Source: Antedon mediterranea
Taxonomy: Eukaryota > Echinodermata > Crinoidea > Comatulida > Antedonidae
Length of the DNA stretch: 64,000 nucleotides
Reading direction: 5' to 3'
Assembly: GCF_964355755.1 (NCBI RefSeq)
Contig: NC_092671.1
Location: forward strand, 4,661,001-4,725,000
The notes under the pieces are model-generated. The model had not been told where the DNA came from. It saw only the letters and a program-made list of their open reading frames with translations, and did no database searches. Shown in pieces: positions 19,706 to 47,900 of this stretch. The position numbers were made by a program, and so were the translations under genes. Numbering within the stretch: position 1 is the stretch's first letter; every line of letters begins with the position of its first letter.

Positions 19706-20245
19706 ATCTACTATAAATACGGTAATTATAATATTTATATAGAAGCTAATACCATATTATTTTAGAGGGTGCTAATATTTTACTAAAACTTTAGGAAGTT
19801 TGTAATAGCCTTGTTTAAAGATATAGTTGCAAGATTTGAGATATACCTATAAATATCAGGCCAGAAAGAAGACGGATGCTCGTTCGTAAATTACAAAATA
19901 TACCGTATTACCCAGACACAGACTTTAACGGATCTTCAGAAAGTTCAAGATCTACTTGTTTTTAACTGGTAAGTTCTAAAAACTGCCATATAACGTTCAA
20001 TTGACATTTTTCTATTTTTGAAAACACAAGAAGATTTGATGCACGTTTTAACGAATCAAAATTCAGTGAAACCAGTTCATACCCGGATTCTAGAATTGGT
20101 ATTCTTGTAACCTAAACTCTTCTTAAAGCCTACGCCTCCTACACTGTGAGCCTACTAGTAGAGGCAGAGGAGTCCTTCTAGCCTAGGCCTACATCAGGAA
20201 ATTGTTATGTATAATGTATGATGTTGGCCTAGAATTGGTAAGTAA
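19706..20245 (-). pseudogene. Local duplication copy 1, containing a GPCR relic
   Basis: The region around 19790-20000 is a degenerate minus-strand match to the TM3-TM5 part of the neighbouring receptors, for example TTGCAAGATTTGAGATA, AATATCAGGCCAG, ATGCTCGTTCGTAAATTAC and AAAAACTGCCATATAACGTTCAA. The whole block recurs at 20537-21302 and preserves the uninterrupted (empty) sites for two insertions found in that second copy: TACCCGGAT at 20080-20088 and GTATAAT near 20215-20221. Confidence 0.75.
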
Positions 20246-21233: not shown

Positions 21234-21272
21234 GTATAATCATGGAGTAAAGTCTTTACTCCATGGTATAAT
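21234..21272. mobile_element. Micro-palindrome insertion, copy 1 (25 bp, 7-bp TSD)
   Basis: The insert is CATGGAGTAAAG, a single T, and CTTTACTCCATG (21241-21265), flanked by GTATAAT on both sides (21234-21240 and 21266-21272). The paralogous block near 20215-20221 has one GTATAAT and no insert. Same termini as the copies at 28781 and 30328. Confidence 0.85.
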
Positions 21273-21302
21273 GTATGATGTTGGCCTAGAATTGGTAGGT
21301 AC

Positions 21303-22173
21303 CTCTCTCAAATAGTTTGTTTAACAAGTTTCAATGTGTATCTTCTTCAAACTGTTTCAATTGTTTGCGTTACTACGACGATGTCGATGAAAAGAGACCC
21401 AAAACGTTCAACGCTAGTAATAAAAATGTTCGCGCTATCGTTATCATTTCAAATTGACCGTTTTCAAATGATCGTCGTTGAACTAGCTTCGAATAACATC
21501 TACTGGAAAACAGGCTTTAAGGAGGAACATATTAATGAAAGCACCATATAGTCCCATCAATTGGGTTCAAAAATTCTTCAATCTCATTGGTGCAAATGAG
21601 GCTGAAGGCCACCTGCTGGGTTATTAATTGGATTACCCTCATAAAATAACTGGCTATCGGCAGCAATAATTGTCCAGAAAAAATCATCATCCGGACATAA
21701 TTGAGCGTTCAAAACCAAATTATGGCGAGATCATATAGATAATCTAGTTAAATTAACTAGCCATAGTTCGATGTGAACGCCACTATTGGATGTTGAATTT
21801 CCGTGTTCAGATATATCAGAGGCTGCCTTGGTCAGTGACATATTTCCTGTTTTACAATTTAAATATATGTACTTGAAAACAATAAAAGTACGGCAACGGC
21901 AAGTATTGGCAACAACAAATGTGATACCACGTGGTAGTCAGCGGTTACACTTTAAAAAATGTCAATTCTTTAATTAAACATAAACTTTAAGTTCAAATAC
22001 TTTATACCAAATAAAGCTAGGACCTACTTTATCTCAAAGCGAGGTGTTAAGAAGAAACTTCAGCAACAAAAGTTATGGCGATGATGATGAATAATGTATT
22101 CTTCTATGGATGTGAATTCCCGAAAAAAAAAGCGAGAAATAATTGTGAGTAATTTTTTGATAGACAAATGGTG
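21303..22173. other. No gene recognised
   Basis: Open frames at 21336 and 21786 have no recognisable domain. The stretch is the 3' side of the GPCR pseudogene on the minus strand and may include its untranslated or intergenic sequence. Confidence 0.4.
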
Positions 22174-23238
22174 TCAACGATGAAACATATCAATTAATTT
22201 CTGTCGTATAATGTTATAGAAAACATCAACGAATGCTTGTCTGAAATCTTTATTTACTAAATTATATATTAACGGATTTACTGAAGAATTTAAATATGTT
22301 CCTAAACGACAAATATTAAAAAGCCAGGACACATTACATCCAAGAATATCAAACAAGTACAATACTCCAAATAAATATAACGGTGTCATACAGAAAACAT
22401 AAACTGTAACTGTCACAACAACTGTCCAGAATATTTTCCTCTCAGATTTAAAACGCGGGTCGTTCTCGCTTGAATTTGGCATCATTTTTCGGGATTTCCT
22501 TAAAGAATAGAGCATACGCGAAAATAAAACAACTATAATAACATTTAACAGCATAGTTATTGTAAATTGCAGTGTCCACAAAATTCTACAAAGTTTAATG
22601 TAGCTTGCATTAAAACAACATACAGTTGCACGATTTGAGATACCTCTATACATATCAGGCCAGGGAAGAATGATGGACACTCGTTCGTAAATAACAAATA
22701 ATATAGTATGTACTGACAAACTAAAAATTCACATAATTGTGCAGATTTTTACAGATCTTGAAAGAGTGCCAAATCCACTTGTTTGAAACTGATATGGTCT
22801 ACAAACTGCCATATAACGTTCAATGGAAAGCCAAAATATGGTTAAACTTGCTGCAACTACAGCACTATTAGGAAAATAATCCAACAGTCCACATACCCAA
22901 CCGTCCCTTCTTGCTTCAATAGTATATGGTATCGCAATGAACTCGATTCTATATACTGGCATGGGTGCCATAATTAAATGCAACGTATCAGCTATAGCTA
23001 AATTGGCTAGATACAGATACACTGATTTGTGTAATTTACTCACTATAATGATAAATGTCATGGTGTTTCCGACAATTCCTAAAGCGACAACAACAGGAAT
23101 GATATTGTAACGTAAAATCGTCTCCCAGTCACTAAAGAGGAACTTATCAATGAGATCGTCGTATTGTTGACTCGTGTTAGACGATGAAGTTTCATATCTC
23201 GGTGCGTCACTGGATGTATTATCGATTGATAATGCCAT
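22174..23238 (-). pseudogene. Rhodopsin-family GPCR with a single TGA at the TM4 tryptophan
   Basis: A full-length receptor frame from ATG at 23238 to the C-terminus ending LIDMFHR, parallel to the intact receptor at 18334-19416. It has N-glycosylation sites (NTSS), GIVGN in TM1, LAIAD in TM2, a cysteine before TM3, ERYMAVC, PWPDMYRGIS, CMTP in TM6 and NPLIY in TM7. One in-frame TGA (22729-22731, codon 170) falls exactly where the paralogue has TGG, the conserved W4.50, splitting it into a 169-residue and a 181-codon part in the same frame. There is no other lesion, so the inactivation is very recent, polymorphic or a sequencing error. It is not spliced around: no intron signals flank the stop. 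Confidence 0.85.
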
Positions 23239-24258
23239 TTTTGTTCATAAAATTTCTTTTTCTACCAGTTGAACTGTGCTTCAAAATTAATTATAAGTAG
23301 GTCTACGACGAAGACCAGTGTTTGTAGATTCGGTTGGTTGGTTGATAAATATTCGTGAAGAATGTCGTACGACAGCTTCACTTCTTAACTTAACTGGCGG
23401 GTTGTCGCAATACTATTCCGTGTAAAAGATGTGTTTAAAACTAATATACTGTACGACATTATCTGGTAAATAATTCAGATGCTGTATTCAAATCCGGAGA
23501 CTCTCCAATTGTTTTAATGCACTGCCATTTCATCTGGTAAACGATTTATTTATTCAATGAAAGAGGATTCTAGGAAGTTTCTATAATTTAAAAAACACAT
23601 AAAGTGGAGATGTACACATTTTTAATTAAACGATTTGATTCTGTATTACCTCTTTTTAAATAAAGCACAGCTTTCAATGTTGACATTTAAAAGTGTATCC
23701 AATATTATATATATACACAGTCGATCGTTTATAATTTTGAATTTCCGAGCAAATTGTATTTGTTTTGCTATTTTTCTGTTCAATATTAATTATAGAAATT
23801 ATTAAAATTCAAATATTATTATATTTCAATATATAGTTAGATTCTGTATTATATTCTGTTCCAATGCCAATAAATTTCAAATCGATATATTTAAATTTCG
23901 GTAAACTTCAATGTCAATAAATTTAGATTTGATATATTTAAATGTCGGTAAATTTCAATGTCAATAAATGTTGATATCGGTATATTCAACTATTCTCACT
24001 GTATCTAGATTTCCCCCGTATCATAATGTGATACATATGCAATTTTGTATTACGGAATTTTCCTGAGATACTGAAAAAATATTTTCGTATGTGGAGATAC
24101 AGTAGGGGCTATTGAGAATCGGGTAAAATGTTGGAAGAAAGCGATATCTTTAACGTTAATTTAGTTTAGGAATCAATTTGTGGATTTTAAAAAAAGTATA
24201 CATTTCCATTCACTATCAATCGACGGTTATAAAAATGTACACAATAAATTGTCAGCTA
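23239..24258. other. Intergenic, AT-rich
   Basis: It contains a diverged run of 'tcaatgtcaataaattt...gatatatttaaa' repeats (about 23860-23990) and a small stem at 24020-24105 (GTATCATAATGTGATAC). No exon found. Confidence 0.4.
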
Positions 24259-24379
24259 CAATATCAAAGGGTAAATAATGGAATAAAGATAACGACTTGA
24301 TAAAAATAGCCATATCATTACAACGTAATTAGCCAGGCCTACTAACACTTCTTCAAACAAACCGTGAATTACTTTCGTC
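24259..24379 (+). promoter_or_regulatory. Upstream region shared by all four CUB units
   Basis: About 120 bp before the unit A ATG (AATATCAAAGGGTAAATAATG, AATAAAGATAA, AGCC..., CCGTGAATTACTTTCGTC) aligns with the regions before the ATGs of units B (26975-27099), C (30736-30862) and D (33990-34116). Units B-D also share AATAAATACCGCAC and CTATT.TACTTCGAC; unit B has TATAAATA near 27050, a possible TATA box. Conservation of this block with each first exon suggests each unit carries its own promoter. Confidence 0.5.
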
Positions 24380-26487
24380 ATGGATCATCATCTGTTTAAG
24401 CTTGTTTTCCTCTTTGGTAAGTCTATATTATGAATTTTATAACGTGTTGATCATCATTATTCCGTCTTCGATACGAAGGTTTGTCACCTTGACTCTACCT
24501 CTAATACAATTTCTTGTCACTCTCTTTGCCTTTACGTAAGAAGTTGTTAAGCTCCATTTCTCGATGTCATCAATCCATTTGATTCTCCCTCTCTCCACTT
24601 CCTCGCTGCTCTCGTTCCTTCAAATGTGTTCCCTAGATGTATTATTACTTTCTAACAACCAATGTTGATAATACAATGCTATCCCATCTAAAGAACAACT
24701 ACACATAGTACAGTATGATATATTTTATACATACATAGTATAGACCTACAGTTAGACATAGTAAGCCGATATGGAGTACGGTATAACAGGAAACGATACA
24801 GTACAGTTACATAGTGTGGCACCACCAAAGATACCTACACACAAACTGTCTCAGTTATACGCAACAAAAGGGAAAGCTGAACAATCTGGAAGATAGGATT
24901 TAAAGTTACACGTCAAAGTAAACAATTACTGTATCTCAGCCAAATTCATTCAGTGTACATTGAGAAAAGACTGACATGGTAGGGTGTGGGGCGAGATATG
25001 TTTCTCCAAACAAGACTTATAAGTGTCGCCTGTTAGATGCACTTGTGGCAATACTCAATCTTCATCTTTTATCAGTTCCATATTTTCTATTTTATTTAGA
25101 AATAAATTGTATATTTCCGATCCTTTACTTGATCATGTGGCTTACTTGTTGTTAAGTGTGTGATGAAATAAAATAGTGAATCTTCCATACAATCCATGGA
25201 ACAAGAAGATACTTAAGATACTTGTAGATCTCGTCTCTCTTCCCATTATATGTAAACTGTCCATTCAAAACTCAACTCATTCAAATACTTCGTTCGTATA
25301 CATAATTAAATAGCTCATTACCCTTTATTGTACAGTTTTGCAGATTCATTATTCCGCAGCAGATTTTGCAGAATGCGGCGGGCCACACAATGTTACTGAT
25401 CCGTTTGGAACTATAACATCTACGAATTTTGGAGATCCATCTTGGCCTTTTTATGACCCGAATTCTTCTTGTGTTTGGAACATATTTGCACCACTTGGAT
25501 ATGTAAGTTAAAGCAATGCTTTCTTGACATACATGTTACGCGCAAGCTTTAATTCGATGCGGTGTCATTCTTGCACAATGTTCTTATTTTTACATTAAAT
25601 GATTGTCGTATCCAATCATTTCAAGTATTAGATTGAAACCAATCGTTCCAATTTCTAATGTGTTACTATGTACATCATCAGATAAATAAGTTCTTGGTAA
25701 ATTATAACAATACGCCGCACTTATACTTTGTTTAAAACATTTTTAAAATACACAATAAACTTTAAATCTTCAGGCAAGTTATATAAATAATGTATAGGGC
25801 CTATAGGTCTACAAATCGAACAACCGAAACGTTTTAAATTTTCCTGTTTTAAACTTTAATTTTAACTTTGATTTAGCTCATTGAAATAAAGTTCAGTTTT
25901 GTTGACTTCGGGAAAACATGTCGTCAAGATTACATCTACCTCTATAACAGCAAAGCAGCAGTTGGAGCAGTAGCTGCAGAGGTTTGCGGACAGATTATAC
26001 CACCACCATTCCTGTCAGACTACAATTACGCAACCATTCTATTTTCGTCAGATTTTAGTGATGAAGCATTGGGATTCAAAGCAACCTATCGTCGCATTGT
26101 TAAAGCGCCAGGTAAGCATAAACCCTGTTGTTGTCCACTTGGTGAACTAATTCTGATTGGTTGCGCATTTATGAAATTATGATAGCTGTATACAGCTTTT
26201 TATATACGTGGAATTCGCCTATAGTAGAAAACTAAACAAGCCGCCCAAAGACTTTTTTCGTGGACATGGGCCTATATAAAACATTTTGGAAATTGCAGTT
26301 ATAGATACATATGTTGTAATTACAGTTACATTTGAATTTAAGACCAGATGCCATAACATTATATAATAATTCTTATTATTATTATATTAACTATTATAAC
26401 ATGTTACATCAGCTTCTGGCTATTCCATGGTATTCTATGTCTTTCATTAAATTGGTATTTCTTATTTTTATAGATTCATTACCTTAA
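24380..26487 (+). CDS. Unit A: short secreted single-CUB protein
   Basis: Four exons join in frame with GT-AG introns: 24380-24416 (signal peptide start MDHHLFKLVFLF), 25336-25502, 25877-26111 and 26474-26487 (ending DSLP and TAA). The product has about 150 residues: a hydrophobic leader and one CUB domain split over two exons, beginning ECGGPHNVTDPFGTI, with the signature PSWPFYDP, C.WNI and, in the second half, [17 protein letters not shown] and [12 protein letters not shown] domains are extracellular binding modules. All boundaries around the CUB pair are phase 1. AATAAA occurs at about 26596 and 26614. It is paralogous to units B and C and to the first CUB of the protease gene downstream. 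It could also be an alternative 5' end of that gene, because its phase-1 donor is compatible. Confidence 0.8.
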
Positions 26488-26595
26488 CCAAAAGAAGAAA
26501 TGAACGCAAAGAGAATGGAAGCTAACGACATTTAATGTTAAAACCAATTTCTACATAATATGTTTTTGCAGTTCCAAGCCATTAAAAATGTACGA

Positions 26596-26619
26596 AATAA
26601 AACAATTGAATTGAATAAA
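26596..26619 (+). terminator. Candidate poly(A) signals for unit A
   Basis: Two AATAAA hexamers lie about 110-130 bp after the unit A stop codon, a normal position for 3'-end formation. Confidence 0.4.
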
Positions 26620-27869
26620 AATCTATTGAAAATATTATGTTAAATGCTATTTTTATGTGGCGGGTTTTATTTCTTTAATAAAATGGGCTCTCAACTTGAA
26701 AAGATTAGGTATTGTCCATATAACTCTAAACAACCATCAAGTTTTGTATGAAAATAATATAAAATTACATATTCTTACCTGGTTAAACATAGGAAGTTAT
26801 ACAAAAATTACCAACATTTCAAATTAGGTTAGTAACTAATTTGCACAATTTTAATCGTATCAAACACACAAAATAATGGTGAATTTAATTCAACCTACCA
26901 ATGTTTAAATTAAACTCAAATGTCAACATTTTTCGAGTGAAATATTAACAGATTAACACATGCTTCAGTAAAGCTATCAAAGAATAAACAATGAAATAAA
27001 GATAAAACGATGCTAACAAAACAGATGTAAGCATATCATTTATTATAAATAAATACCGCACACTATTCTACTTCGACCCAACTATGAATTACATTTGTCA
27101 TGGACTTTCTGTTTAAGTTTGTTTTCCTATTAGGTAAGTCTATCATTTTAAATTATTTTAAGATTATACCGGTACTAAATTAGAGGAAGTTATTTTTTAC
27201 AATAATCTATTAATATATAATATTAACATATGCTGTAATGGTGAATACTCTCCTCCCCATATGTAGATATGAAAATATTGTATACCTATCAAAGACAACA
27301 CAGGCGTGTAAACAAGTAGACCTGGATTAAACAATAAATATCTGTAGGGCCTACAATACAATTTCACTGTATGATATTAACAAGGAGGCCTACAAAAGCA
27401 AACAAGTTTTCTTAAGTTTACGCAATAGGCCTATACATAAAAACAGAAGCAGTTATGCAATTTCGTGAACTCGTTAAAAAGAGTAGAAAACCAAGATCAA
27501 CGACCATGGCATGCATACATACACTGATCCACCGATACTAGTATGAAAACTAACGCTGAATTCATGGACATAGTCAATTGTGTCTCTGGTTATAATAACT
27601 TAATTGGTATATAGAACCGTTTATACTTGTACTTTATTTTTACAGCTTCATGTCTACAGAGTTGTTCTACAGAACATGTGTTTTGTGGTGGTCCTCATAA
27701 TGTCACTGATCCATTTGGAACGATAACTTCTACGAATTTTGGAGATCCATCTTGGCCTTTCTATGACCCGGAGTCTCGTTGTACTTGGAACATATATGCA
27801 CCAGTTGGATATGCAAGTATATCAATCTTTCTAACTAACATGCGCAATACTTATTTTCGCGTCAATGTT

Positions 27870-28490
27870 TTCTCTTTCACATGTTTGTTGTTTTCAATCT
27901 CATGTTTGTTGTTTTTAATCTCATGTTTGTTGTTTTCAATCACATGTTTGTTGTTTTCAATCACACGTTTGTTGTTCTTAATCTCATGTTTGTTGTTTTC
28001 AATCTCATATTTGTTGTTTTCAATCTCATGTTTGTTGTTTTCAATCACATGTTTGTTGTTTTCAATAACACGTTTGTTGTTCTTAATCTCATGTTTGTTG
28101 TTTTCAATCTCATATTTGTTGTTTTCAATCTCATGTTTGTTGTTTTTAATCTCATGTTTGTTGTTTTCAATCACATGTTTGTTGTTTTTAATCTCATGTT
28201 TGTTGTTTTCAATCACATGTTTGTTGTTTTCAATCACACGTTTGTTGTTTTCAATCACACGTTTGTTGTTTTCAATCTCATATTTGTTGTTTTCAATCTC
28301 ATGTTTGTTGTTTTCAATCACATTTTTGTTGTTTTTAATCACATGTTTGTTGTTTCCAATCGCATGTTTTTTTGTTTTCAATCATATTTGTTGTTTCCAA
28401 TCACATGTTTGTTGTTTACGTTTCTAATCACATGTTTTTTGTTGTCAATCATATTTGTTGTTTCCAATCACATGTTTGTACAATTAAAGC
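27870..28490. repeat. 21-bp minisatellite in intron 2 of unit B
   Basis: Units read about TTTGTTGTTTTCAATCTCATG, with variants ending CACATG or CACACG, in roughly 28 copies. Because 21 is a multiple of 3, long frames open on both strands (LLFSISC..., and ENNKHEI... on minus). These are not genes. The same array, shorter, sits at the same place in unit C. Confidence 0.95.
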
Positions 28491-28773
28491 TGTCTTATTT
28501 ACTTACTATGTAAATCCTGCGACAAAATAGGCATATTATGTGATTTTACAAATAATTATTTGATGCTCGTAAAACAAAATTTAATAAGCCATTAAAATCA
28601 CCAGAAAACTGAAGAACATAAAAGCAAATGTTTAAGTAGTGTGTTTTAGTGTTTTGTTATACATTTTAATTTGTTCTTACTTCATTTAGATCATTTAAAT
28701 TAACTTCAGTTTCGGTGACTTTGGCGAAACATGTGGAGAGGATAAGATACTCATTTTTAACAACTATAAACCA

Positions 28774-28813
28774 GTAGGAGCATGGAGTCTTATTCTTTAC
28801 TCCATGGTAGGAG
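28774..28813. mobile_element. Micro-palindrome insertion, copy 2 (26 bp, 7-bp TSD), inside a CUB exon
   Basis: The insert runs from CATGGAGTCTTAT to TCTTTACTCCATG (28781-28806) between two GTAGGAG copies (28774-28780 and 28807-28813). Unit C has one GTAGGAG at the same codons and no insert. It adds 33 bp in frame, coding AWSLILYSMVG-type residues. Confidence 0.85.
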
Positions 28814-29372
28814 CAATAGCTCAGAAGATTTGTGGACAGACTATACCGTCACCACCGTTTGTGTCAGAACATAATTACGCTTCCATGATATTTGTATCAT
28901 ATACGAGTGGTCCTCAAGCTTTAGGATTTAAAGCGACATACCGTCGCATTCCTAAAACGCCAGGTAGGCTTAAAACATATGTTCCATTAGCAAATTGACC
29001 ATAACTGAGTTCTGATTGGTTGAGTAATTCCTTCACGTCACAAAAAGTAGGTGTAAAAATACGCATGCGTCAATATTTTTTGCTCGGGCTAACAAATTCG
29101 CGTAATGGAGAACAGAATTATAACCTTATAGTCCACTAGGCGAAACAGGAATCAAAAATTAAAATACGCATGTGAATAAAATAACGCATTTGATTCACAT
29201 GGAACCGACTTTAAGATGTATTTATTTCCCAATTTACTAGTCAATGTCTTTTCTTTTTCCTCTGTTCAATTTAAGACGAGATACCATTCAAATATTATCC
29301 TGTAACATGATATACTGTTTCATTTTCGACAAACAAAGGCTTTCTTTATTATTATTATTTATTCTTAATACT

Positions 29373-29575
29373 GGGTAGCCTCTTCAGACTGATTTCCCAG
29401 AGGGCCCAGTGTATATTATGAGTACGTGACAGTGGCTGTGTGTGAAATAGTACACCGGGGTAACCCCTTATTCGTCTAGAAAGATGTACTAGGTTTACAG
29501 GAGCCAGATGTGTGCACAGGAGCCAGATGTGTACACTGGACCTACGGTTTATAGTCCTTATCCTATAATGTCAAC
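29373..29575 (-). mobile_element. SINE body copy in unit B flank
   Basis: Contains ACTGGGTAGCCTCTTCAG, CCCAGAGGGCCCAGTG and ACACCGGGGTAACCCC, matching the SINE body at 6610-6820. The tRNA-like head is absent. The same copy lies at 32435-32640 because the host block was duplicated. Confidence 0.65.
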
Positions 29576-30320
29576 CTAAATATTCATTATCAAATTGGTA
29601 TTCTTCTTATTAGATGTATTACATTAACCACTAGAACGAGGTGGAAGACATGCTGACGATGTATACATTGTTAATGAACAATATAATCCAATTAAATACA
29701 ACGCGCCATTGACGCTGCGAAGTGACACTAACGTCACAATAGATACAAGACACTACGCAAGTGAAATGAATTTTGTGTTTTCATGAAGATACACTAATGT
29801 TAGCCTTAAAGCTCAGGTACAGGCATGAATTTTATATATAATATCTGGTTAATTGTACATAAATCAAATATTTGTAATAGAAAAAACATGAATTTCCTTA
29901 AAAACGGTCAAATACAATATTATGTAATAACATGGTGACTCCCTAGAAGGTGAAAGAAGATGGTGGAAAAAATCTTAAAAATAGCATGAAAATAAAACTC
30001 CGAGGTTGAATAAAAATACTAGAAATGTAAAATTAAAGTTATATTACCTATATTTGGTCATTAGATAACATTTTTTTACAACACCGTTTATTTTTCATAC
30101 TTTTTTTTTAAATACCTCTCTATTTACAACATTTGTGTACAAAAGAATACAGATTTTACTGTGTAATTTCAACTATTCCCCCACTGAATTGTCAACAAGC
30201 TGATGTAACACAAATAAAACGCCAACAATTATGAAACATAGGGGAAACTATAGATCGATAATTATTGGAAAGTATGATCAATAGAAATTTTTTGCCCGCA
30301 CCTGGCCTTTAACATACTAT

Positions 30321-30356
30321 CATTAACCATGGACCTATATAGGTCCATGCATTAAC
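30321..30356. mobile_element. Micro-palindrome insertion, copy 3 (22 bp, 7-bp TSD)
   Basis: A perfect 22-bp palindrome, CATGGACCTAT joined to ATAGGTCCATG (30328-30349), lies between CATTAAC copies (30321-30327 and 30350-30356). The duplicated block at about 33590 has a single CATTAAC and no insert. Confidence 0.85.
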
Positions 30357-30862: not shown

Positions 30863-32869
30863 ATGGACTTTCTTCTTAAGTTTGTTTTCCTACTAGGTAA
30901 GTATATTGAATTATTTAAAATACTAGTATGTAAATATTTTGTACTTAACATGATAGAGGCATAGAGTTTAAAAAAAATATGAGTAGGCCTAAACAAAGAT
31001 TATGAAAGACAAAATAGTATGTACATTGTAATTCCACTTATGGTATAATAGAAGAGGCCAATACAGAACAAACCATTTGTCATGGTTTTATCCCATCCAT
31101 GACGACGTATATTACACTCTTTATTTTACAGTTTTAGGCCTACATAGGTGTTCCTCTACAGAATATGAGTATTGTGGTGGTCCTCATAATGTCACTGATC
31201 CATTTGGAACGATAACGTCTACGAATTTTGGAGATCCATCTTGGCCTTTCTATGACCCGGAGTCGCGCTGTACTTGGAACATATATGCACCAGTTGGATA
31301 TGCAAGTAGATCAATCTTTCTAACTAACATGCGCAATGTTTTCTCTTTCTAATTTTTGTTGTTTTCAATCTTATGTTTGTTGTTTCCAATCACATTTGGT
31401 TGTTTTCAATCACATGTTTGTTGTTTCCAATCATATGTTTGTTGTTTCCAATCACAGGTGTGTTGTTTCCAATCACGTTGTTTTCAATATCATGTTTGTT
31501 GTTGTTTCCAATCACATGTTTATTGTTTTCAATCATATGTTTATTGTTTCCAATCAAATGTTTGTTGTTTCCAATCACATGTTTGTTGTTTCCAATCACA
31601 TGTTTTTTTTTTAATCAAGTTTGTTAAAATCATTATTTGAACAATTTACTATGTAAATCCTGGGACAAAATAGTCTTATTATGTGGTCTTACAAATAATT
31701 ATTTAATGCTCGTTAACTGAAGAACATAAAAGCAAATGTTTAAGTAATGTGTTTTAGTGTTTTGTTCTAACTTCATTTAGGTCATTGAAATTAAGTTCAG
31801 TTTCGTTGACTTTGGCGAAACATGTGGAGAGGATTCGATACTCATTCTTAACAACTATGAACCAGTAGGAGTAATAGTTCAGACGATTTGTGGACAGACT
31901 ATACCGTCACCACCGTTTGTGTCAGAACATAATTACGCTTCCATGATATTTATATCATATACGACTGGTCCTCAAGCTTTAGGATTTAAAGCGACATACC
32001 GTCGCATTCCTAAAACGCCAGGTAGGCTTAAAACCTATGTTCCATTAGCAAATTGACCATAACTGAGTTCTGATTGGTTGAGTAATTCCTTCACGTCACA
32101 AAAAGTAGGTGGAAAAATACGCATGCGTCAATATTTCGTAATCGGGCGAATAAATTCGCGTAATGGAGAACAGAATTATAACCTTATAGTCCACTAGGCG
32201 AAACAGGAATCAAAAATTAAAATACGCATGTGAATAAAATAACGCATTTGATTCACATGGAACCGATTTTAAGATGTATTTATTTCCCAATTTGCTAGTC
32301 AATGTCTTTTCTTTTTACTCTGTTCAATTTAAGACGAGATACCATTCAAATTTAATGTATTATTATCCTGTAACATGATATACTGTTTCATTTTCGACAA
32401 AAAAAGGCTTTCTTTATTATTATTATTTATTCTTTATACTGGGTAGCCTCTTCAGTCTAAGACTGATTTCCCAGAGGGCCAAGTGTATATTATGAGTACG
32501 TGACAGTGGCTGTGTGTGAAATAGTACACCGGGGTAACCCCTTATTCGTCTAGAAAGATGTACTAGGTTTACAGGAACCAGATGTGTGCACAGGAGCCAG
32601 ATGTGTACACTGGACCTACGGTCCTTATCCTATGTCAACCTAAAGCTTGGTTCCCACTAGAACGTAACGCAAGGACGTAAACGCAACGCAAGCGTTTTAA
32701 CCAATGACAAGCGAAGTTATAGACAGCATTCACAAGCGAATAAGCCATCGCTTGTGATTGGTCAATTCACTTGCGTTGCGTTACGTCCTTGCGTTGCGTC
32801 GCTAGTGGGAACCACGCTTAAATATTCATTATCAAATTGGTATTTTTCTTATTAGATGTATTACATTAA
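30863..32869 (+). CDS. Unit C: short secreted single-CUB protein
   Basis: Exons 30863-30896 ([11 protein letters not shown]), 31132-31301, 31781-32021 and 32856-32869 (DVLH and TAA) join in frame to 459 nt, 152 residues. After the leader comes one CUB domain: CGGPHNVTDPFGTI, PSWPFYDPESRC.WN, then [43 protein letters not shown]. The intron after exon 2 uses a GC donor (GCAAGT). Intron 2 holds a 21-bp minisatellite, and the last intron holds SINE and MITE insertions. No lesion is visible, unlike unit B. It may act as an independent secreted CUB protein or as an alternative start for the protease gene, since its exon 3 ends in the same phase. Confidence 0.8.
31355..31612. repeat. 21-bp minisatellite in intron 2 of unit C
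   Basis: Units near TTTGTTGTTTCCAATCACATG, about 12 copies, shorter and more uniform at the third codon-like block than the array in unit B. It lies at the same intron position, so it pre-dates the duplication. Confidence 0.9.
32435..32640 (-). mobile_element. SINE body copy in unit C flank
   Basis: Duplicate of the 29373-29575 copy, with the same internal duplication of the AGGAACCAGATGTGTGCAC-type words. Confidence 0.65.
32644..32818. mobile_element. 175-bp foldback MITE with TAA duplication
   Basis: The left end AGCTTGGTTCCCACTAG and the reverse complement of the right end AGCGTGGTTCCCACTAG are inverted copies, continuing into AACGCAAGGACGTAA words. The centre carries AACCAATGACAAGCG / CGCTTGTGATTGGTC. 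TAA flanks both sides, and unit B has the empty site CAACCTAAATATTC at about 29572. Partial relatives lie at 40573 and 52110. Confidence 0.85.
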
Positions 32870-34116
32870 CCACTAGAAGGAGGTGGAAGACATGCTGACG
32901 ATGTATACATTGTTAATGAACAATATAATCCAATTCAATACAACGCGCCATTGACGCTGCGAGGTGACACTAACGTGACAATAGATACAAGGCACTACGC
33001 AAGTGAAATGAATTTTGTGTTTTCATGAAGATACACTAATGTTAGCCTTAAAGCTCGGGTACAGGCATGAATTTTATATATAATATCTGGTTAATTGTAC
33101 ATAAATCAAATATTTTCAATAGAAAAAACATGAATTTCCTTAAAAACGGTCAAATACAATAATAATACAATGTAATAATATGTCTGGTGAACCCCCAGAA
33201 GGTGAAAGAAGATGGTGGATATACGGTGGATAATTTTTGCTACCGTATAGCATGAAAATAAAACTCCGAGGTTGAATAAAATTACTAGAAATGTAAAATT
33301 AAAGTTATATTACCTATATTTGGTCATCTGATAACATTTTTTACCACACGGTTTATTTTTCATAGTTTTTTTAAAAATACCTCTCTATTTACAACATTTG
33401 TGTACAAAAGAATACAGATTTTACTGTGTAATTTCAACTATTCCCCCACTGATAATAAATTGTCAACAAGCTGATGTAACACAAATAAAACCCCAAAAAT
33501 TATGAAACATATGGGAAACTATAGATCGATAATTATTGGAAAGTATGATCAATAGAAATTTTTTGCCCGCACCTGACCTTTAACATACTATCATTAACTA
33601 ACAAGATAACAATCAAACCACACCTTCTATAATAGTTTAATTGTCTAGCTTTACAGGCGCGTAAATAAAAAATGATAATCATAATTGTTTAGTTGTAATT
33701 TTTATTTTCCAAGTCAAATGTCACTTCGTTTACCCTTTTTTCAATTTAAGAGTAGCCTACAGCATATAATAGGTCATGTTCAGATCATAGAAATAAACCA
33801 ATATATCAAGACAGTTTCGACTACCGTAAAACCTTGCAAAGAAGCTTCTTCTTTTTGAGGTTCTATGGTAGCTAAATAACAGCTACACTATGTCAGTTGT
33901 TGAGGAAGTCTCACTGTTAGCTGTAATATTGGGGTTATTTTCTATGAACATATGAATAGGCCTTACTGATAAACACATGTCTCAGTTACAATATCAAACC
34001 GTAAACAATGAAATCAAGATAAAACGACGCTAACAAAACAGAATAAGCATAATTATCATTTGTGAATAAATACCGCACGCTATTTTACTTCGACTACACT
34101 GTGAATTACATTGGTA

Positions 34117-37100
34117 ATGGACTTTCTTCTTAAGTTTGTTTTCCTACTAGGTAAGTATATTGAATTATTTAAAATACTAGTATGTAAATATTTTGTACTT
34201 AACATGATAGAGGCATAGAGTTTAAAAAAAATATGAGTAGGCCTAAACAAAGATTATGAAAGACAAAATAGTATGATGTACATTAATTGTAATTACACTT
34301 ATGGTGTAATAGAAGGGGCCAATACAGAACAAACCATTTGTCATGGTTTTATCCCATCCATTACGACGTATATTACACTCTTTATTTTACAGTTTTAGGC
34401 CTACATAGGTGTTCCTCTACAGAATATGAGTATTGTGGTGGGCCATATAATCTTACTGAACCATTTGGAACAATAACATCTACAAATTATGGAGATCCCT
34501 CCTGGCCGTTTTATAACCCGAATTCTCGCTGTGTTTGGAACATAATAGCACCAATTGGATATGTAAGTAGACAATGCTTTCTTGACATGCATGTTATAGG
34601 CAACACAAAATTCAATTAATTTATAACTGCGCAATGACAACTTATTTTATATTAACTTTAAATCTGTTTTTTCTTTAATGTAGCTCGTTGAAGTTAAGTT
34701 CAGTTTCGTTGACTTTGGGAAAACGTGTGGACAGGATTATATATACATTATTAACAACTATAAACCAGTAGGAGGACCAGCTCAGAAGATTTGTGGACAG
34801 ACTATACCGTCACCGCCATTCGTGTCAGACTATAATTACGCTTCCATTCTATTTTTATCCGATTCCAATCAGAATCAAGCATTAGGATTTAAAGCAACAT
34901 ATCGTCACGTGATTGTTAAAGCGCGAGGTAGGCAATAAACTTGTTTTTCCTCAATTTATTCAAGCAAACCAAACCATTCTGGTTGTTTGGGAATTTGTTT
35001 ACATCATAAAAAGTAGATGGCATTATGCGCATGCACATAAACCATCGCTTTTATTTCACGTGGAATTAATTCACCACAGTGGAAATAAACTCATCTCACA
35101 TTATTAAGACGTTTACTGAATTAACAACACTACAAATACTGCAGTTCTATTTTCTTTCAATATAGCCTATTTTCTGTTTAAAGGCTTGCATGGTATAGAA
35201 ATAATAAATCTGCCAAAACACTTTCTAATCAACATAAAAACTGAGGTTAGAAACTGAATATATTTCTTATTTTATCTAGCCTTAGGCCTACAAAACGTAT
35301 ATTCTTCGACACCGTCAGGATGTGGTGGACCACAGCATCTTACCGATTCATTTGGAACCGTATCAACTATGAATTTCGCTGACCCTTCCTGGCCGTTCTA
35401 TGATGCTGATTCTATGTGCACGTGGTTGATAGAAGCGCCGATTGATTATGTAGGTAAAACAATCCCGTGAGAAACGACCAGTTACCTTTCTGTAATTTCT
35501 TCAAGACTCTAGAACTTATATTATTGACAATTTTTGTTTATTTGAATTTGTCAAATGTCTTCTTCAAGACTCTACATATAATGTTTGTTTATTGTTTACT
35601 ACGCACAATATTAATTTAAATAATATGCAAAATAATCTCATATGCTGCGTTTAAAGGTAGGTTCCAAGTTTAGGGTTGAACTGGGCGTTGTTATCAAATT
35701 AAGAGTATTTGAATTCGTAACAATTCTTCTAGTTCATCGAAGTGGAGTTCCAATTCCTAGAAGTCGGGGATTCTAAAACAGGAAAATGTGGATACGATGC
35801 TGTGTACATCTTTGACAGCAAAGAACCAATGGGGGCTCCGAAAGAGTTTATTTGTGGGAAGACATTGCCGTCATCACCTTTCCTGTCCACTGGCAATCAC
35901 GTGTTCATTGGATTTGTTTCAGACGATAGTGGTCATGAGTTAGGATTCCAAGCAACGTATCGTTTCATTATTAAACCAGGTAGGTATGCAAAAATATACA
36001 AGAGAACTGGTCTTTACCTGCAAGTCGAGAAGCTGTAAAATCGAAGTATCAAATACAGGAACTGTGGAGTTGGCATTCGCATGGGTATGGGTGGGGCTTT
36101 GCAAGAATTACTGATTGACAGGGAATAGGCCTACTGCATGTCAATGGGTGGTGCTCCAATGATAAAACGATGGTCTTGCAGCTTCTTCAAAAAAACGGAT
36201 AATGACGATGAAATGAGTCATTTTTGATAAATGAAAAACTGAGCGGTTATGGAACCAAAACCTGCATGGCAACAATTAAGTGTGTTTACTACAATATGAT
36301 CTTTGTTTCGTTTTTAAAATATCAATAGATTATTATACACACGACAGCTCCTATACTAAAATGACACAGGTTTGATGATTCTTGTTTACAGACCCAACGC
36401 CTCCAGCAACCGCCTCATCGGGATGTGGTGATCTAAAATACCGCACGGATAATCATGGTACAATAACGTCAATGGACTTCGATGGATCAACGCACTATAA
36501 GCCGGATGCTGAATGTACATGGATTATTACAACAGATCCAGAAAAGGTATATGTGCCCATTCTATCAACATTTTCTTTTAAACAAACTCACTCTCGTATT
36601 TAACCATTAATAAAAGAATATAGCATAGACATTTTTTTCTCCTTCTGGTAACATTGGTAACATCTGTCGGAAGAATAAAAAAAGAGTAAAGCTTTAAAGA
36701 AAATGTGCTGAGAATATTCTTTTCTCAAAGAAATTTTACTATCTGAATAAAATACTTCAGCCACCAGCAGGTAGGCTAGATCCACAGGACTCCAAACGTT
36801 AGGACCAGCAACGTCTAAAATAGGTTCATGGAACAGTCACCACAATTGCTGGTTTGATGACATTTTTTCGAAATCAAATTTTGTAGAAATACTTTCTGGA
36901 CCATTATCTAGATAGTAACGTCTTACAACATTTAAAACATTTTCTTTTACAGCTCGTGACTCTGAAGTTCATACACTTCGACTTAGAAGATAACGATTGT
37001 ACTCGTGACGTCATCTTCGTCTATGACGGTTCTATCGAGGAAGAATCACCACCAATTATTGGTAAATTCTGCGGTTCCAAACTTCCGTATCCTCTCGTTT

Positions 37101-41992: not shown

Positions 41993-44900
41993 TTATAACG
42001 CAGCATCCACAGCGTCAGGTAAATTTTGAGGTAGACTATCACTCCCTGAAGGTACAGTAACACCGGACATCGATGTGTCCGGCACTGTGTCCGGTTGGAA
42101 GCCACCATTGTTTGCACCTTTGTTTGCACCTTTGGTTGCACCATTGGTTGTACCATTGGTTGCACCATTAGGTGACTCAAAGAAGATTTCTGATGTATGT
42201 TGACTTGATCGTCTATTGAAAATATTATAATATCGAATTTAATAATAATAACAATGAGGATGAGATGATGTTAAAAGAAGGATATTTGGTTTTATGATCA
42301 CTTGATTATTTGTTATAAATAGTATAGTATGATTTCAACAAATAGTATATTCATTGTTTGAAGGTTTGCATGGCGAAATCAAATGTTGATAAAGTTTGCG
42401 GTACACCACATATTAGTCTGAAAAGAACTGTTGAGTTTCTCAACTCAACAGTTCTTTTCAGAAATAATATACGTGGTGTATTGAAACTTTATATCAACAT
42501 AGTATATTCATGTTGATGATGACGTTTCAATGGATTCAATACTGAATGGTAATGTTGATGATAAAGACTTATTATTTTTTAATTGTCTGAACAATGATGA
42601 CAATGATAATAATGATTATGACTTTAAATAAAAGTTGTGTGTATTATTAATGTTTATACAGTTGACGATGACTACAACAACGAAGTCGACAATGATGATT
42701 CTAAATTAAAAATCCACAATACATAATTTAAAAAACTACAACAAATCAATCAAAATTGAATAGATATTATTATTTTTGGAAAAAGGGGTAAGAGAACCTA
42801 ACAAACTGCACATGATATCTCTCTTTTTTTTTAGCAAAAGCAAAACGTGATGCGGTGAAGATTACTCATGCATGAATGTTCAACTTAAACCTTCCTTTAC
42901 AACTAAAATGTTGAACCGATCCCGATCATGTGTTCGCCGCATGTTCACATGTAGTCACAATCATTTGCATACATTTTAGATATAAAATCAAATAATTTAC
43001 ATGTATCGACCATAATCGGGTGCATTTCAATTTGTTTGTAGAAAAATATGTCTCTCGATCGCTTGATTGGCCTCCCGCTTACAGGCCCATCGAGTAACAT
43101 GAGATATAATGTCATCTTGAATATTAACTATTAAACTGGTGCTTGCAGAAAAAAAGCCAGCTGACTTGATATGAATGCATGCTTACATAACAATAATTCA
43201 AAAAACAGAATTCAACAACAATAAAACAAATGACAGATTGATATGATAATGACAGAAGGAATTGATCAGGAAAATGACATATGCTAATGCAGTTGGGACT
43301 ATCTATAATAATGTGGAATGTGCTATATAAATGCATTAACATTAATACAGTAGAACTCTTATGAAGGGGACACTTACATGACCCAACAATGTCTGAAGAG
43401 GGTTGTTTGTAAATCATCATTTGTTTCAAAAGAAATATCCCCTGAATAAAGGTGCCCCTAAAAAGAGGTGTCCCTGAAGAGAGTTGTCCCTAAATAGGTG
43501 TCTCTTAAATAGGTGTCCCCTTAATAGAGGTGTACCATGAATAGGGGTGTCCCAAAGGAAGGGTCCTACTGTATTAAAAATAATAATTTGAAAAATATGT
43601 TTTCCTACCTTTGTGGAGTATCACTAATATTGCTATCTAAAAATATCAGAAAATAATGTGCTAAAATATCATACAACCACAGAGATGTTGTTTGAAACAA
43701 GTATGACTGATTTGCATCTCTGTACCTAGACAGATGCTAGTGTAAAACGTCATATGTGACACTACATTTACCTTAAAGATGTATTGTCCCCCAAAAACAT
43801 GAAAAAATTAAGATTAATAAAATCAGATTTTGAATAGGCAATTTCACAGTTTTAATAAAGTTATTCACTTCTGTAGAAAAAAAAACATCAAAAATAATTA
43901 TTTCACTTATACAAAGACAAAACAAATGGTTAATTTCAACCAAAAACCATTGTCTTCCAGTTTAGGTATATTTTGCTTTAAATTACATTTTTTTTGGTGG
44001 AAAATGTTTTTTTTTTTTGATCAAGTTTTTGGTCATAGTGAATAACTATTATGTGATATTAAAATGGCATATTCAAAAAAAAAAATTTAAATAATTATTT
44101 TTTAGGGGGACAATATATCTTTAACCATACAATAATTCCTAATATTTATTTCATTGTGGGATGTACAACAACAAAAAACGTTTCAGGATTTATAGAAATA
44201 ATTCTAAGTACTGTACTTACTCTCTGTTTCTTGCATTTCTTCAAGGTCAAACTTACTATTATTCAAGTCCTTTTTTGAGCTAAGTAAAAAAACAAAAAGC
44301 ATTTGTGTTAACGTTATTGTATATATAGCGGTTTTGTAGTATTTTTATATTAGGGAGCTTTTGATTCACGACAACCGAATGTTATGTTAATTTGATGTTA
44401 ATTCATTGTGGATGCGGAGAACAACGTATTTCTTTTTGTGACAGTCAAATCAATTGTGTTTTTCAAATCAAAAAGTATAGTCAAAAGTAATGATAAAGTT
44501 GACTGTATTATTACTGTATCACTTTGTTGACAGTAATAAGAGAGTTGACTGTATAGTTATAGTACTGTATCACCTTTTTGACAGTAATAAGAGAGTGGAC
44601 TGTATAGTTATAGTACTGTATCACCTTTTTGACAGTAATAAGAGAGTGGACTGTATAGTTATAGTACTGTATCACCTTTTTGACAGTAATAAGAGAGTTG
44701 ACTGTATAGTTACAGTACTGTATCACCTTTTTGACAGTAATAAGAGAGTTGACTGTATAGTTATAGTACTGTATCACCTTTTTGACAGTAATAAGAGTTG
44801 ACTGTATAATTACAGTACTGTATCACCTTTTTGACAGTAATAAGAGAGTGGACTGTATAATTACAGTACTGTATCACCTTTTTGACAATAATAAGAGAGT

Positions 44901-47900
44901 TGACTGTATAGTTACAGTACTGTATCACCTTTTTGACAATAATAAGAGAGTGGACTGTATAATTACAGTACTGTATCACCTTTTTGACAATAATAAGAGA
45001 GTGGACTGTATAATTACAGTACTGTATCACCTTTTTGACAATAATAAGAGAGTTGACTGTATAGTTACAGTACTGTATCACCTTTTTGACAATAATAAGA
45101 GAGTTGACTGTATAGTTACAGTACTGTATCACCTTTTTGACAATAATAAGAGAGTTGACTGTATAGTTACAGTACTGTATCACCTTTTTGACAGTAATAA
45201 GAGAGTTGACTGTATAATTACAGTACTGTATCACCTTTTTGACAATAATAAGAGAGTTGACTGTATAGTTACAGTACTGTATCACCTTTTTGACAATAAT
45301 AAGAGAGTGGACTGTATAATTACAGTACTGTATCACCTTTTTGACAATAATAAGAGAGTTGACTGTATAGTTACAGTACTGTATCACCTTTTTGACAGTA
45401 ATAAGAGAGTTGACTGTATAGTTACAGTACTGTATCACCTTTTTGACAGTAATAAGAGAGTGGACTGTATAGTTATAGTACTGTATCACCTTTTTGACAG
45501 TAATAAGAGAGTGGACTGTATAGTTATAGTACTGTATCACCTTTTTGACAATAATAAGAGAGTTGACTGTATAGTTACAGTACTGTATCACCTTTTTGAC
45601 AATAATAAGAGAGTTGACTGTATAGTTACAGTACTGTATCACCTTTTTGACAATAATAAGAGAGTTGACTGTATAATTACAGTACTGTATCACCTTTTTG
45701 ACAATAATAAGAGAGTTGACTGTATAGTTACAGTACTGTATCACCTTTTTGACAGTAATCACAGTTGAATAATATTGCTGTATCACCTTTTTTGACAGAA
45801 ATGACAGAGTTCATATCAATTTTTCGTTGTTGTATGTAGTTTTCTGTATAATACAGTACTGCACTGTATCACCATTTTGACATTAGTGACAGAATTGACT
45901 ATACTACTATATCACTTGACAGTAATGTTGATAGTATCAATTTTTTTAATTTACTATACTTTATTACCTTTTTCTGTCTTTAACTACAACAAAGATCATC
46001 ACCGCTAAACACACAGCAAGGAAACTGATCAGGGTGATAGCCCATGGTTGAAGACCGTTTGCGTCCACCGGTGTTGGATTCTCAACAGGCCCTATGATGT
46101 ACTCAAACTCGCTACCATCTTTGTTCTCAGAGAGCATAGCCTGTACTTGTTCAGTTGTCATTGCGGCTACTTTGTTGTTGGTAGGGTCACTTATCCAAAA
46201 TTTAACCTCCAAGTTTGAGTTGATCTGGACGAACGAGTAGTACTCAATATTATCTGATCTAAATATGAAATATTGAAAATTTGCATTTATTGTTTCTGAA
46301 TAATATGACAGTACATAGATACAACATCAATCTCTCTAATAGATATGATTATAATATAACATACAAGATAAACACTGTTTTTGTTGTCTTGGAGTAGAGT
46401 TGAAAAAGTTTTGAGTTAGAACCCTGGCACTCTTGGTCAAGATTGAACCCTGGCCCTATGAATTGAAAGGCACACACGTTTAACACCAAGCTTCAGCTTC
46501 ACTAAAAATACTAATTACTAGACAAATTTAAGTAGCTTTGCAAATGTAATACAGACAAAATTACAACATACTTGTAAACAGATTCACGAGGAGCTAAACA
46601 AGCTAGAATACTCTCGGAACAAAAGTCAGTTGCCTGTTCCGCCAAAGACTCGGCAAACGCCAATTGTTTCTCTTCATCAAACTGTAAGAACAAATGGTAT
46701 ATATATATATAATATATAAGGGCTAGTGAAGCACATCACACAATGACAGTTCTGTGCAACTTTTGTTTTTCCTCTACCTTCTTTCTTCCCCTTTAACTAT
46801 TTGGTAGGTTGTGAAAATGAATAAACTATAATACAACATTATTAATCAGTTATGAAAACTTCAAAACACATCTTTTCAATAAAAAAAAAACAAAAAACAT
46901 AAAAATACATTTGAAAAGAAAAACCAGTACAAAAAGTTAAAATTACTTTACAATTGATTCACATTCAATGGCGACATAATATGTTCCCTAACTTTGATTT
47001 TAAACAATTTCCATATATTTTAATTTTTTGGATCATCCAAAAGAAAATTTACTTAAAATACTATACAGTGATCCAGATGAACGTTTTTACTAATTTTAAT
47101 TTTTTATTGACATTAAATTTCTTCAGTAAAATAAATAGTACTTACAGACTCATATGATTCCTCAGTAAATGTTACCAAAGTACCTCCGACGTCTATTGGA
47201 TCTACAAAAGTGGACATACCAGGTTCCTTGGTGGTAAAACCAGGAACTGAAAAAAAGAGAAAAATATCTGTCATTGAACATAAAAAAAAGAGTAAAAACT
47301 GAATGTACTAAAAGCGGTTATGACTAACTAGAGTCAGCTAGAAGACAGCATAGCGAAGGAAACTGGACATAAAATACTTTAGTAGTTAAATGAATAACAT
47401 AAAATAAGATTAGTAGATGAAACCAAAGAAGCCCTTCTTTGGGAAACCTCTATTAAAGGATCCACTTTCCTGTGAACAAATATCAGGAAAATCATGCTAA
47501 ATGTTTTGGCAATTTCAAACTAATTTTCCACTAGGCAAATTGGTTCGCGCAAAGCAAAAGCGTTAGGTTATACACATGTGTAGAGAGTGATTTGGAAGAC
47601 TGAAACATGAATGCATGTAAGTTGGTGCTTTCAATTCGCGAGAACATATTCTCCTAGTAGAAAACAGGGTTTTCGTTAACACCACAGGCAACACCCCTAA
47701 TCAGGATACACCCCCATTAATGGGACACCTAATATTTACTTTAGGCTAGGTGTCTAATTTATAGGGGTTCTAAAAAGAACTTTTTGTGAGAAATTACCAG
47801 TTGCATATTGTAAATCAAATCCTCCTGCGGTTCCATACTCATCACTGAAGAAGCGAATCCACATCTTATTGTTTTTTATGACGACAGGAATAGGAAGTGC

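Follow-up and report, generated by a model that had tools for sequence, protein, structure and literature searches.

Short CATGGA...TCCATG palindromes in Antedon mediterranea as probable excision footprints of P-superfamily transposons

Three palindromes between duplicated 7-bp targets

The window analyzed here is a stretch of 64,000 nt from Antedon mediterranea (NC_092671.1, positions 4,661,001-4,725,000 of the forward strand; window positions are numbered from 1), and it carries three palindromes of 22 to 26 bp that begin with CATGGA and end with TCCATG. An earlier, sequence-only reading of the window had described each palindrome as flanked by exact 7-bp repeats and as matched by a paralogous target that lacks the insert, and both descriptions were borne out at all three sites. 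The features are as follows, none of them being assigned to a strand.

20209..20215, no strand: empty paralogous target GTATAAT of site 1, from paralogue alignment
21234..21240, no strand: left copy of the 7-bp target duplication GTATAAT at site 1, from direct reading
21241..21265, no strand: putative footprint 1, 25 bp, left 12 nt plus right 13 nt of the CATGGAGTAAAGAATAAG terminus, the terminal inverted repeat (TIR) being taken from the long elements
21266..21272, no strand: right copy of the 7-bp target duplication GTATAAT at site 1
28774..28780, no strand: left copy of the 7-bp target duplication GTAGGAG at site 2
28781..28806, no strand: putative footprint 2, 26 bp, 8 nt of one terminus plus an 18-nt CATGGAGTAAAGAATAAG arm of the other (minus strand), the TIR again being taken from the long elements
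28807..28813, no strand: right copy of the 7-bp target duplication GTAGGAG at site 2
30321..30327, no strand: left copy of the 7-bp target duplication CATTAAC at site 3
30328..30349, no strand: putative footprint 3, 22 bp, CATGGACCTATA end type, by analogy, parent element not found
30350..30356, no strand: right copy of the 7-bp target duplication CATTAAC at site 3
31865..31871, no strand: empty paralogous target GTAGGAG of site 2, from paralogue alignment
33592..33598, no strand: empty paralogous target CATTAAC of site 3, from paralogue alignment

The occupied and empty copies align at 96.4% identity over 165 bp (site 1), 94.6% over 261 bp (site 2) and 90.6% over 320 bp (site 3), and site 2 has a second empty paralogue near 34768. 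With the base composition of the window, a 7-bp match at one fixed position has a chance of 1.2e-4.

The genome-wide search that the sequence-only reading had proposed was run with the pattern CATGGAN{10,14}TCCATG. It returned 1180 sites in 354 Mb, copies inside larger repeats included, against 148 for a reversed-pattern control; at this density about 0.2 sites are expected per 64 kb, while the window holds three. Flanks were read for 38 of 50 listed palindromes of this pattern, and a larger sample of 112 records (111 places, as L107 and L133 are the same one) was grouped by flank similarity into 81 independent clusters. This sample draws on several search patterns, and some of its palindromes were picked for their recurrence; L080, which has no left flank, was left out, L061-L068, L094 and L095 lie outside it, and L112 is an inverted copy of L110/L111. 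Exact 7-bp repeats flank the insert in 49 of the 81 clusters, nine more match at 6 of 7 positions, and three (L037, L045, L046; parsed inserts off by one base) carry 8-bp repeats and were counted apart from those with none. That all three window targets begin with GT when oriented, as had been noticed, belongs to a looser pattern: across the 49 exact duplications the favored target is symmetric and approximates [A/G]T[T/A]N[A/T]A[C/T].

Long elements with CATGGA ends and P-type transposases

A search of the genome with PF21787, the P-type RNase H transposase domain, gave 35 matches, and two of the loci proved to be complete elements with CATGGA-type ends. The element at C5:14656949-14669633 (12,685 bp) has identical 31-bp TIRs, CATGGAGTAAAGAATAAGAGGAGACACAACT, and the target site duplication (TSD) CTACAAC; that at C11:13871856-13878179 (6,324 bp) has identical 32-bp TIRs, CATGGAGGTATAAAAATAGAAGGAGAGAGCTC, beginning CATGGAGGTATAAAAATAG, and the TSD GATACCG. 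In both, identity of the two ends stops at 31-32 bp. Shorter copies with GTAAAG-type ends (2,300 and 2,909 bp) and GGTATA-type ends (884, 883 and 883 bp) also lie between exact 7-bp TSDs, and the outer parts common to the long elements were confirmed in three of these five. All seven copies with both ends (C11, C5, L061, L062, L065, L066, L068) have exact 7-bp duplications, a count to be read with the fact that the search for element ends demanded an exact 7-bp repeat. In addition, L067 is a 111-bp deletion derivative (TSD GTCAAAT), and L122, L125 and L019 show one CATGGA-type end near a transposase match; no complete CATGGA-ended element was found at the other transposase matches whose surroundings were read. 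A 407-bp element on C7 (L153:4938-5344) has CATGGAGGAAATATACA ends, an end type also seen among the palindromes, with TTATTAT on both sides.

The transposase exons of the two complete elements are of P type. The 621-aa open reading frame (ORF) of the C5 element scores 88.2 bits with PF21787 (cut-off 24.6) and 23.0 bits with PF12017, and among solved proteins it comes closest to the Drosophila P transposase (6p5a, E 1e-4); the 582-aa ORF of the C11 element scores 85.6 bits with PF21787 (cut-off 24.6). The RNase H domain is shared with the Drosophila P structures (6p5a, 6pe2). Three CATGGA-type ORFs searched at E 0.1 did not match the THAP domain of the canonical Drosophila P transposase; their N-terminus is instead zf-AD-like at 19.5-25.8 bits, under the Pfam cut-off of 28. 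PF21788 and PF21789, the GTP-binding insertion and the C-terminal part of RNase H, were seen in a P element with CTGAGAC ends (65.7 bits, and 17.6 bits, below cut-off, respectively) and not in the CATGGA-type ORFs, which are single exons only. Because PF21787 scores in both complete elements and a P transposase is matched, the long CATGGA-ended elements are, as judged from their sequence, members of the P superfamily. The sequence-only reading had guessed at this superfamily and had proposed a search for long elements with matching ends; elements with ends CATGGAGTAAAG and CATGGAGGTATA, 7-bp duplications and P-superfamily transposase exons do exist.

Its one doubt, that P elements usually duplicate 8 bp, is answered by Galileo, a P-superfamily transposon of Drosophila for which two papers give 7-bp, rarely 8-bp, duplications and a palindromic target consensus, GTANTAC (PMC4168063, PMC2775673). 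The elements described here share the superfamily and the 7-bp duplications with Galileo, and their target preference is comparable in kind but looser in its consensus; Galileo TIRs are long and internally repetitive, whereas those here measure 31-32 bp. In PMC2775673 the word 'footprint' does not occur. From the Drosophila P element our elements differ in size (6.3 and 12.7 kb) and in the duplication, 8 bp in Drosophila and here 7 bp in seven elements and 49 of 81 clusters, with 8 bp in three of 81. Ends carrying CATG are also known from the Drosophila P element, as are excision products that retain parts of both TIRs.

A second P family, with CTGAGAC ends, matches the Drosophila P transposase at E 1.5e-14. 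Two copies with ends CTGAGACAACAATCAAAG (L003 and L004, at C1:2823415 and C3:37950354) have the duplications CGGACAC and GCTAGCT and a 794-aa open frame; a third PF21787 match of equal score lies at C8:6208861, and the three equal scores suggest recent activity of this family. Palindromes of the CTGAGAC family number 87, against seven in the control. A possible third P family, with ends CAAAGATCTTATA, surrounds further PF21787 matches (L148:1857-5242, L151:2789-6208, L155:2410-6640); its 7-bp repeats are GTTTCAG in two cases and ATAACGT in one, and L148 and L151 may be one place.

Arms, joins and competing explanations

Palindromes 1 and 2 each retain both target copies together with the outer TIR parts of a known parent family, the interior being lost, and from these retained termini we place them in the family of the 12.7-kb element. 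More generally, we interpret the palindromes as excision footprints of P-superfamily cut-and-paste transposons (probability about 0.9), because long elements have the same termini and 7-bp duplications and encode a P-type transposase exon, because sampled sites keep just the outer part of one terminus or of both, with arms that stop at 18-20 nt in the two families of known TIR, and because empty paralogues exist in the window. That alternative of the sequence-only reading has therefore gained support.

The structure of the inserts was followed in two families. In the GTAAAG family, the 15-mer CATGGAGTAAAGAAT has 474 matches genome-wide and none in the control; among 40 sites read of the 43 listed on C1, 28 have an exact 7-bp repeat within about 60 bp, and the other 12 comprise one true element end (L057) and sites that keep one arm, a few of them with part of a second, next to no recognizable repeat. 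The TIR could be followed past 19 nt only at L057. In the GGTATA family, for which the first 20 of 29 listed C1 sites of an 18-mer were read, the longest arm covers at most 20 of 32 nt in all 20. Arms of mostly unequal length thus stop at 18-20 nt of TIRs of 31-32 nt in both families; some sites keep a single end (L035, L041, L047) and some contain repeated filler (L051, L059). The Drosophila P element has 31-bp TIRs and is cleaved 17 nt inside the terminus, according to the review PMC7776569. A deep stagger of this P type would leave just such a break point, here nearer to 18 than to 17 nt, and the arm limit fits, as indirect evidence, a deep cut inside the terminus followed by end joining.

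Under this interpretation, an element would insert and duplicate 7 bp, and the transposase would later make a staggered cut, with one strand broken at the 3' end of the element and the opposite strand about 18 nt within the terminal repeat. Once the element had left, each chromosome end would keep up to about 18 nt of the terminus as an overhang, and end joining would trim, fill and ligate the overhangs, sometimes adding short repeated filler. The product would be a short, mostly lopsided CATGGA...TCCATG palindrome between two target copies and without mobility of its own, and some such scars would later be copied inside other repeats. After excision of Ac/Ds, other hAT elements and miniature inverted-repeat transposable elements (MITEs), end joining likewise leaves short remnants or filler between target duplications. 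What sets the present case apart from such footprints is that up to 18 nt stay per terminus, and that scars far outnumber element ends in the C1 sample.

The rival that survives best, at a small chance, is the first explanation of the sequence-only reading, an ultra-small hairpin element; on this view P transposase acts in trans to mobilize the 22-34 bp palindromes as such. The number of palindromes, 1180 against few long elements found, speaks for it, as does the lack of a long element with CCTATA ends among the listed matches; its best remaining argument is the recurrence of seven inserts at targets independent of one another, which together make up 15 of the 67 parsed clusters (three of them for a 23-mer, for example, and two for a 34-mer). 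Within the footprint interpretation such recurrence is explained if the same two ends were joined more than once. Two other recurrent palindromes have the same surroundings in each of the 15 copies fetched (a 32-mer of CTGAGAC type in 10 of 10 fetched of 15 listed, and a 35-mer of CCTATA type in five of five fetched of eight listed with that spacing), so that a larger repeat carried both. The 67 independent parsed clusters hold 59 distinct inserts; 52 inserts are unique and only 15 are perfect palindromes up to one position, the other 52 not, which is what one expects from repair products and not from a unit that moves. The single-ended sites, and arms that are TIR prefixes breaking off at 18-20 nt in two families with known TIRs, also tell against the hairpin, and P transposase needs a full TIR together with internal sites. 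Arm lengths, insert diversity and the flanks of the recurrent palindromes thus disfavor this alternative.

Still less probable are footprints of another superfamily, such as hAT, that happened to share the CATGGA ends. Small footprints are indeed left by other cut-and-paste elements too, but both complete CATGGA-ended elements encode P-type RNase H transposase exons (a point that does not extend to the CCTATA type), and arms of up to 18 nt exceed the few bases left by hAT elements. An origin without any transposon, in which replication slippage or the repair of double-strand breaks made insert-like DNA, can practically be set aside: short palindromes and filler are repair products in general, but the inserts match known long-element ends at 7-bp duplications of a preferred target in unlinked places, and the existence of long elements that share those ends and duplications largely contradicts such an origin.

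Several observations nevertheless weigh against excision footprints. No recognizable duplication is present in 20 of the 81 independent clusters; one of these is a true element end, and for the others flank deletion or age may explain some. Microhomology at the joins exceeds the null expectation only slightly (8 of 19 filler-free joins, with 23% expected), and given this weak excess we do not claim it as a joining rule. The recurrence of seven inserts, discussed above, belongs here too, as does the high ratio of scars to elements. The CTGAGAC family supports the footprint pattern weakly: of its four flank clusters read, one has a 7-bp repeat that is exact, another matches at 6 of 7 positions, and two have none.

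Finally, no long parent of the CATGGACCTATA type of palindrome 3 was found in the searches run. The sequence-only reading had predicted a long element with the end type CATGGACCTAT, and none appeared: facing pairs of 13-mers of the CCTATA type gave no long element among 100 of 634 matches listed, facing 20-mer pairs gave none within a few kb with all 62 matches listed, similarity to one candidate CCTATA end returned a single match, itself, and no CCTATA-ended long element was found around eight further transposase loci. One pair 8 kb apart (C1:15882713/15890761) was considered and rejected as a CCTATA element, since its flanks do not repeat and no TSD is present. That palindrome 3 would be an excision footprint of the CATGGACCTATA end type is argued by analogy with the other two.

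Some sampled places depart from a single scar at a single target. Double footprints stand side by side around one 7-bp target at L063:60-132 (C3:8958259-8958331), L023 (C1:1861043-1861198) and L136 (C1:11792000-11792157); at L063, three copies of GTATAAT surround scars that belong to two TIR types, and at L023, CTTATTC occurs twice with a third copy bearing one change. P-type elements seem to re-enter a target copy left by an earlier insertion. In L081-L090, a footprint with the duplication CCTACAT (changed in L090) lies inside a dispersed repeat and has multiplied with it, so that the scar predates the movement of the repeat, which allows the two to be ordered in time. The CATGGACC-type palindromes L075-L077 (C1:2479800, 2713569, 2785806) have inverted rather than direct 7-mers (GTTAAAC / GTTTAAC); they apparently sit inside a longer palindromic repeat and are not simple footprints. 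Elsewhere in the window, 44761-45786 and 27627-28513 consist of repeated sequence in which both strands carry long open frames, for which coding is unlikely.

Scars as a possible record of lost elements

Excision footprints of P-superfamily transposons with 7-bp duplications are a known kind of product, present here in unusual number. In the sampled places scars are far commoner than surviving elements, with 27 distinct footprints against one full element end on C1 (a sample, not a genome-wide count), and this is the surprising part. Tentatively, and at less than even odds, P-superfamily elements in this lineage may have been lost mainly by excision and end joining, and not restored by template-copied gap repair, so that for every copy that survives a family would have left tens of permanent scars of 17-42 bp; some families, maybe the CATGGACCTATA type, may then have burned out and be known from their scars alone. 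In a literature search that left most subscription papers outside its reach we noticed no genome-wide catalogue of P footprints, and we do not claim that none exists.

No new kind of mobile element has to be invoked for any of this. Scars of 20-40 bp are probably overlooked by ordinary repeat annotation. Together with two parent families they yield, without an experiment, an estimate of the cut site (about 18 nt inside the terminus), of the target preference of a non-canonical P transposase and of the range of heritable end-joining products, and a catalogue of extinct element families could be drawn up from the scars by themselves. If the loss of elements did proceed in this way, the scars would preserve across the genome a fossil record of transposons now extinct and of how breaks in the germline were repaired.

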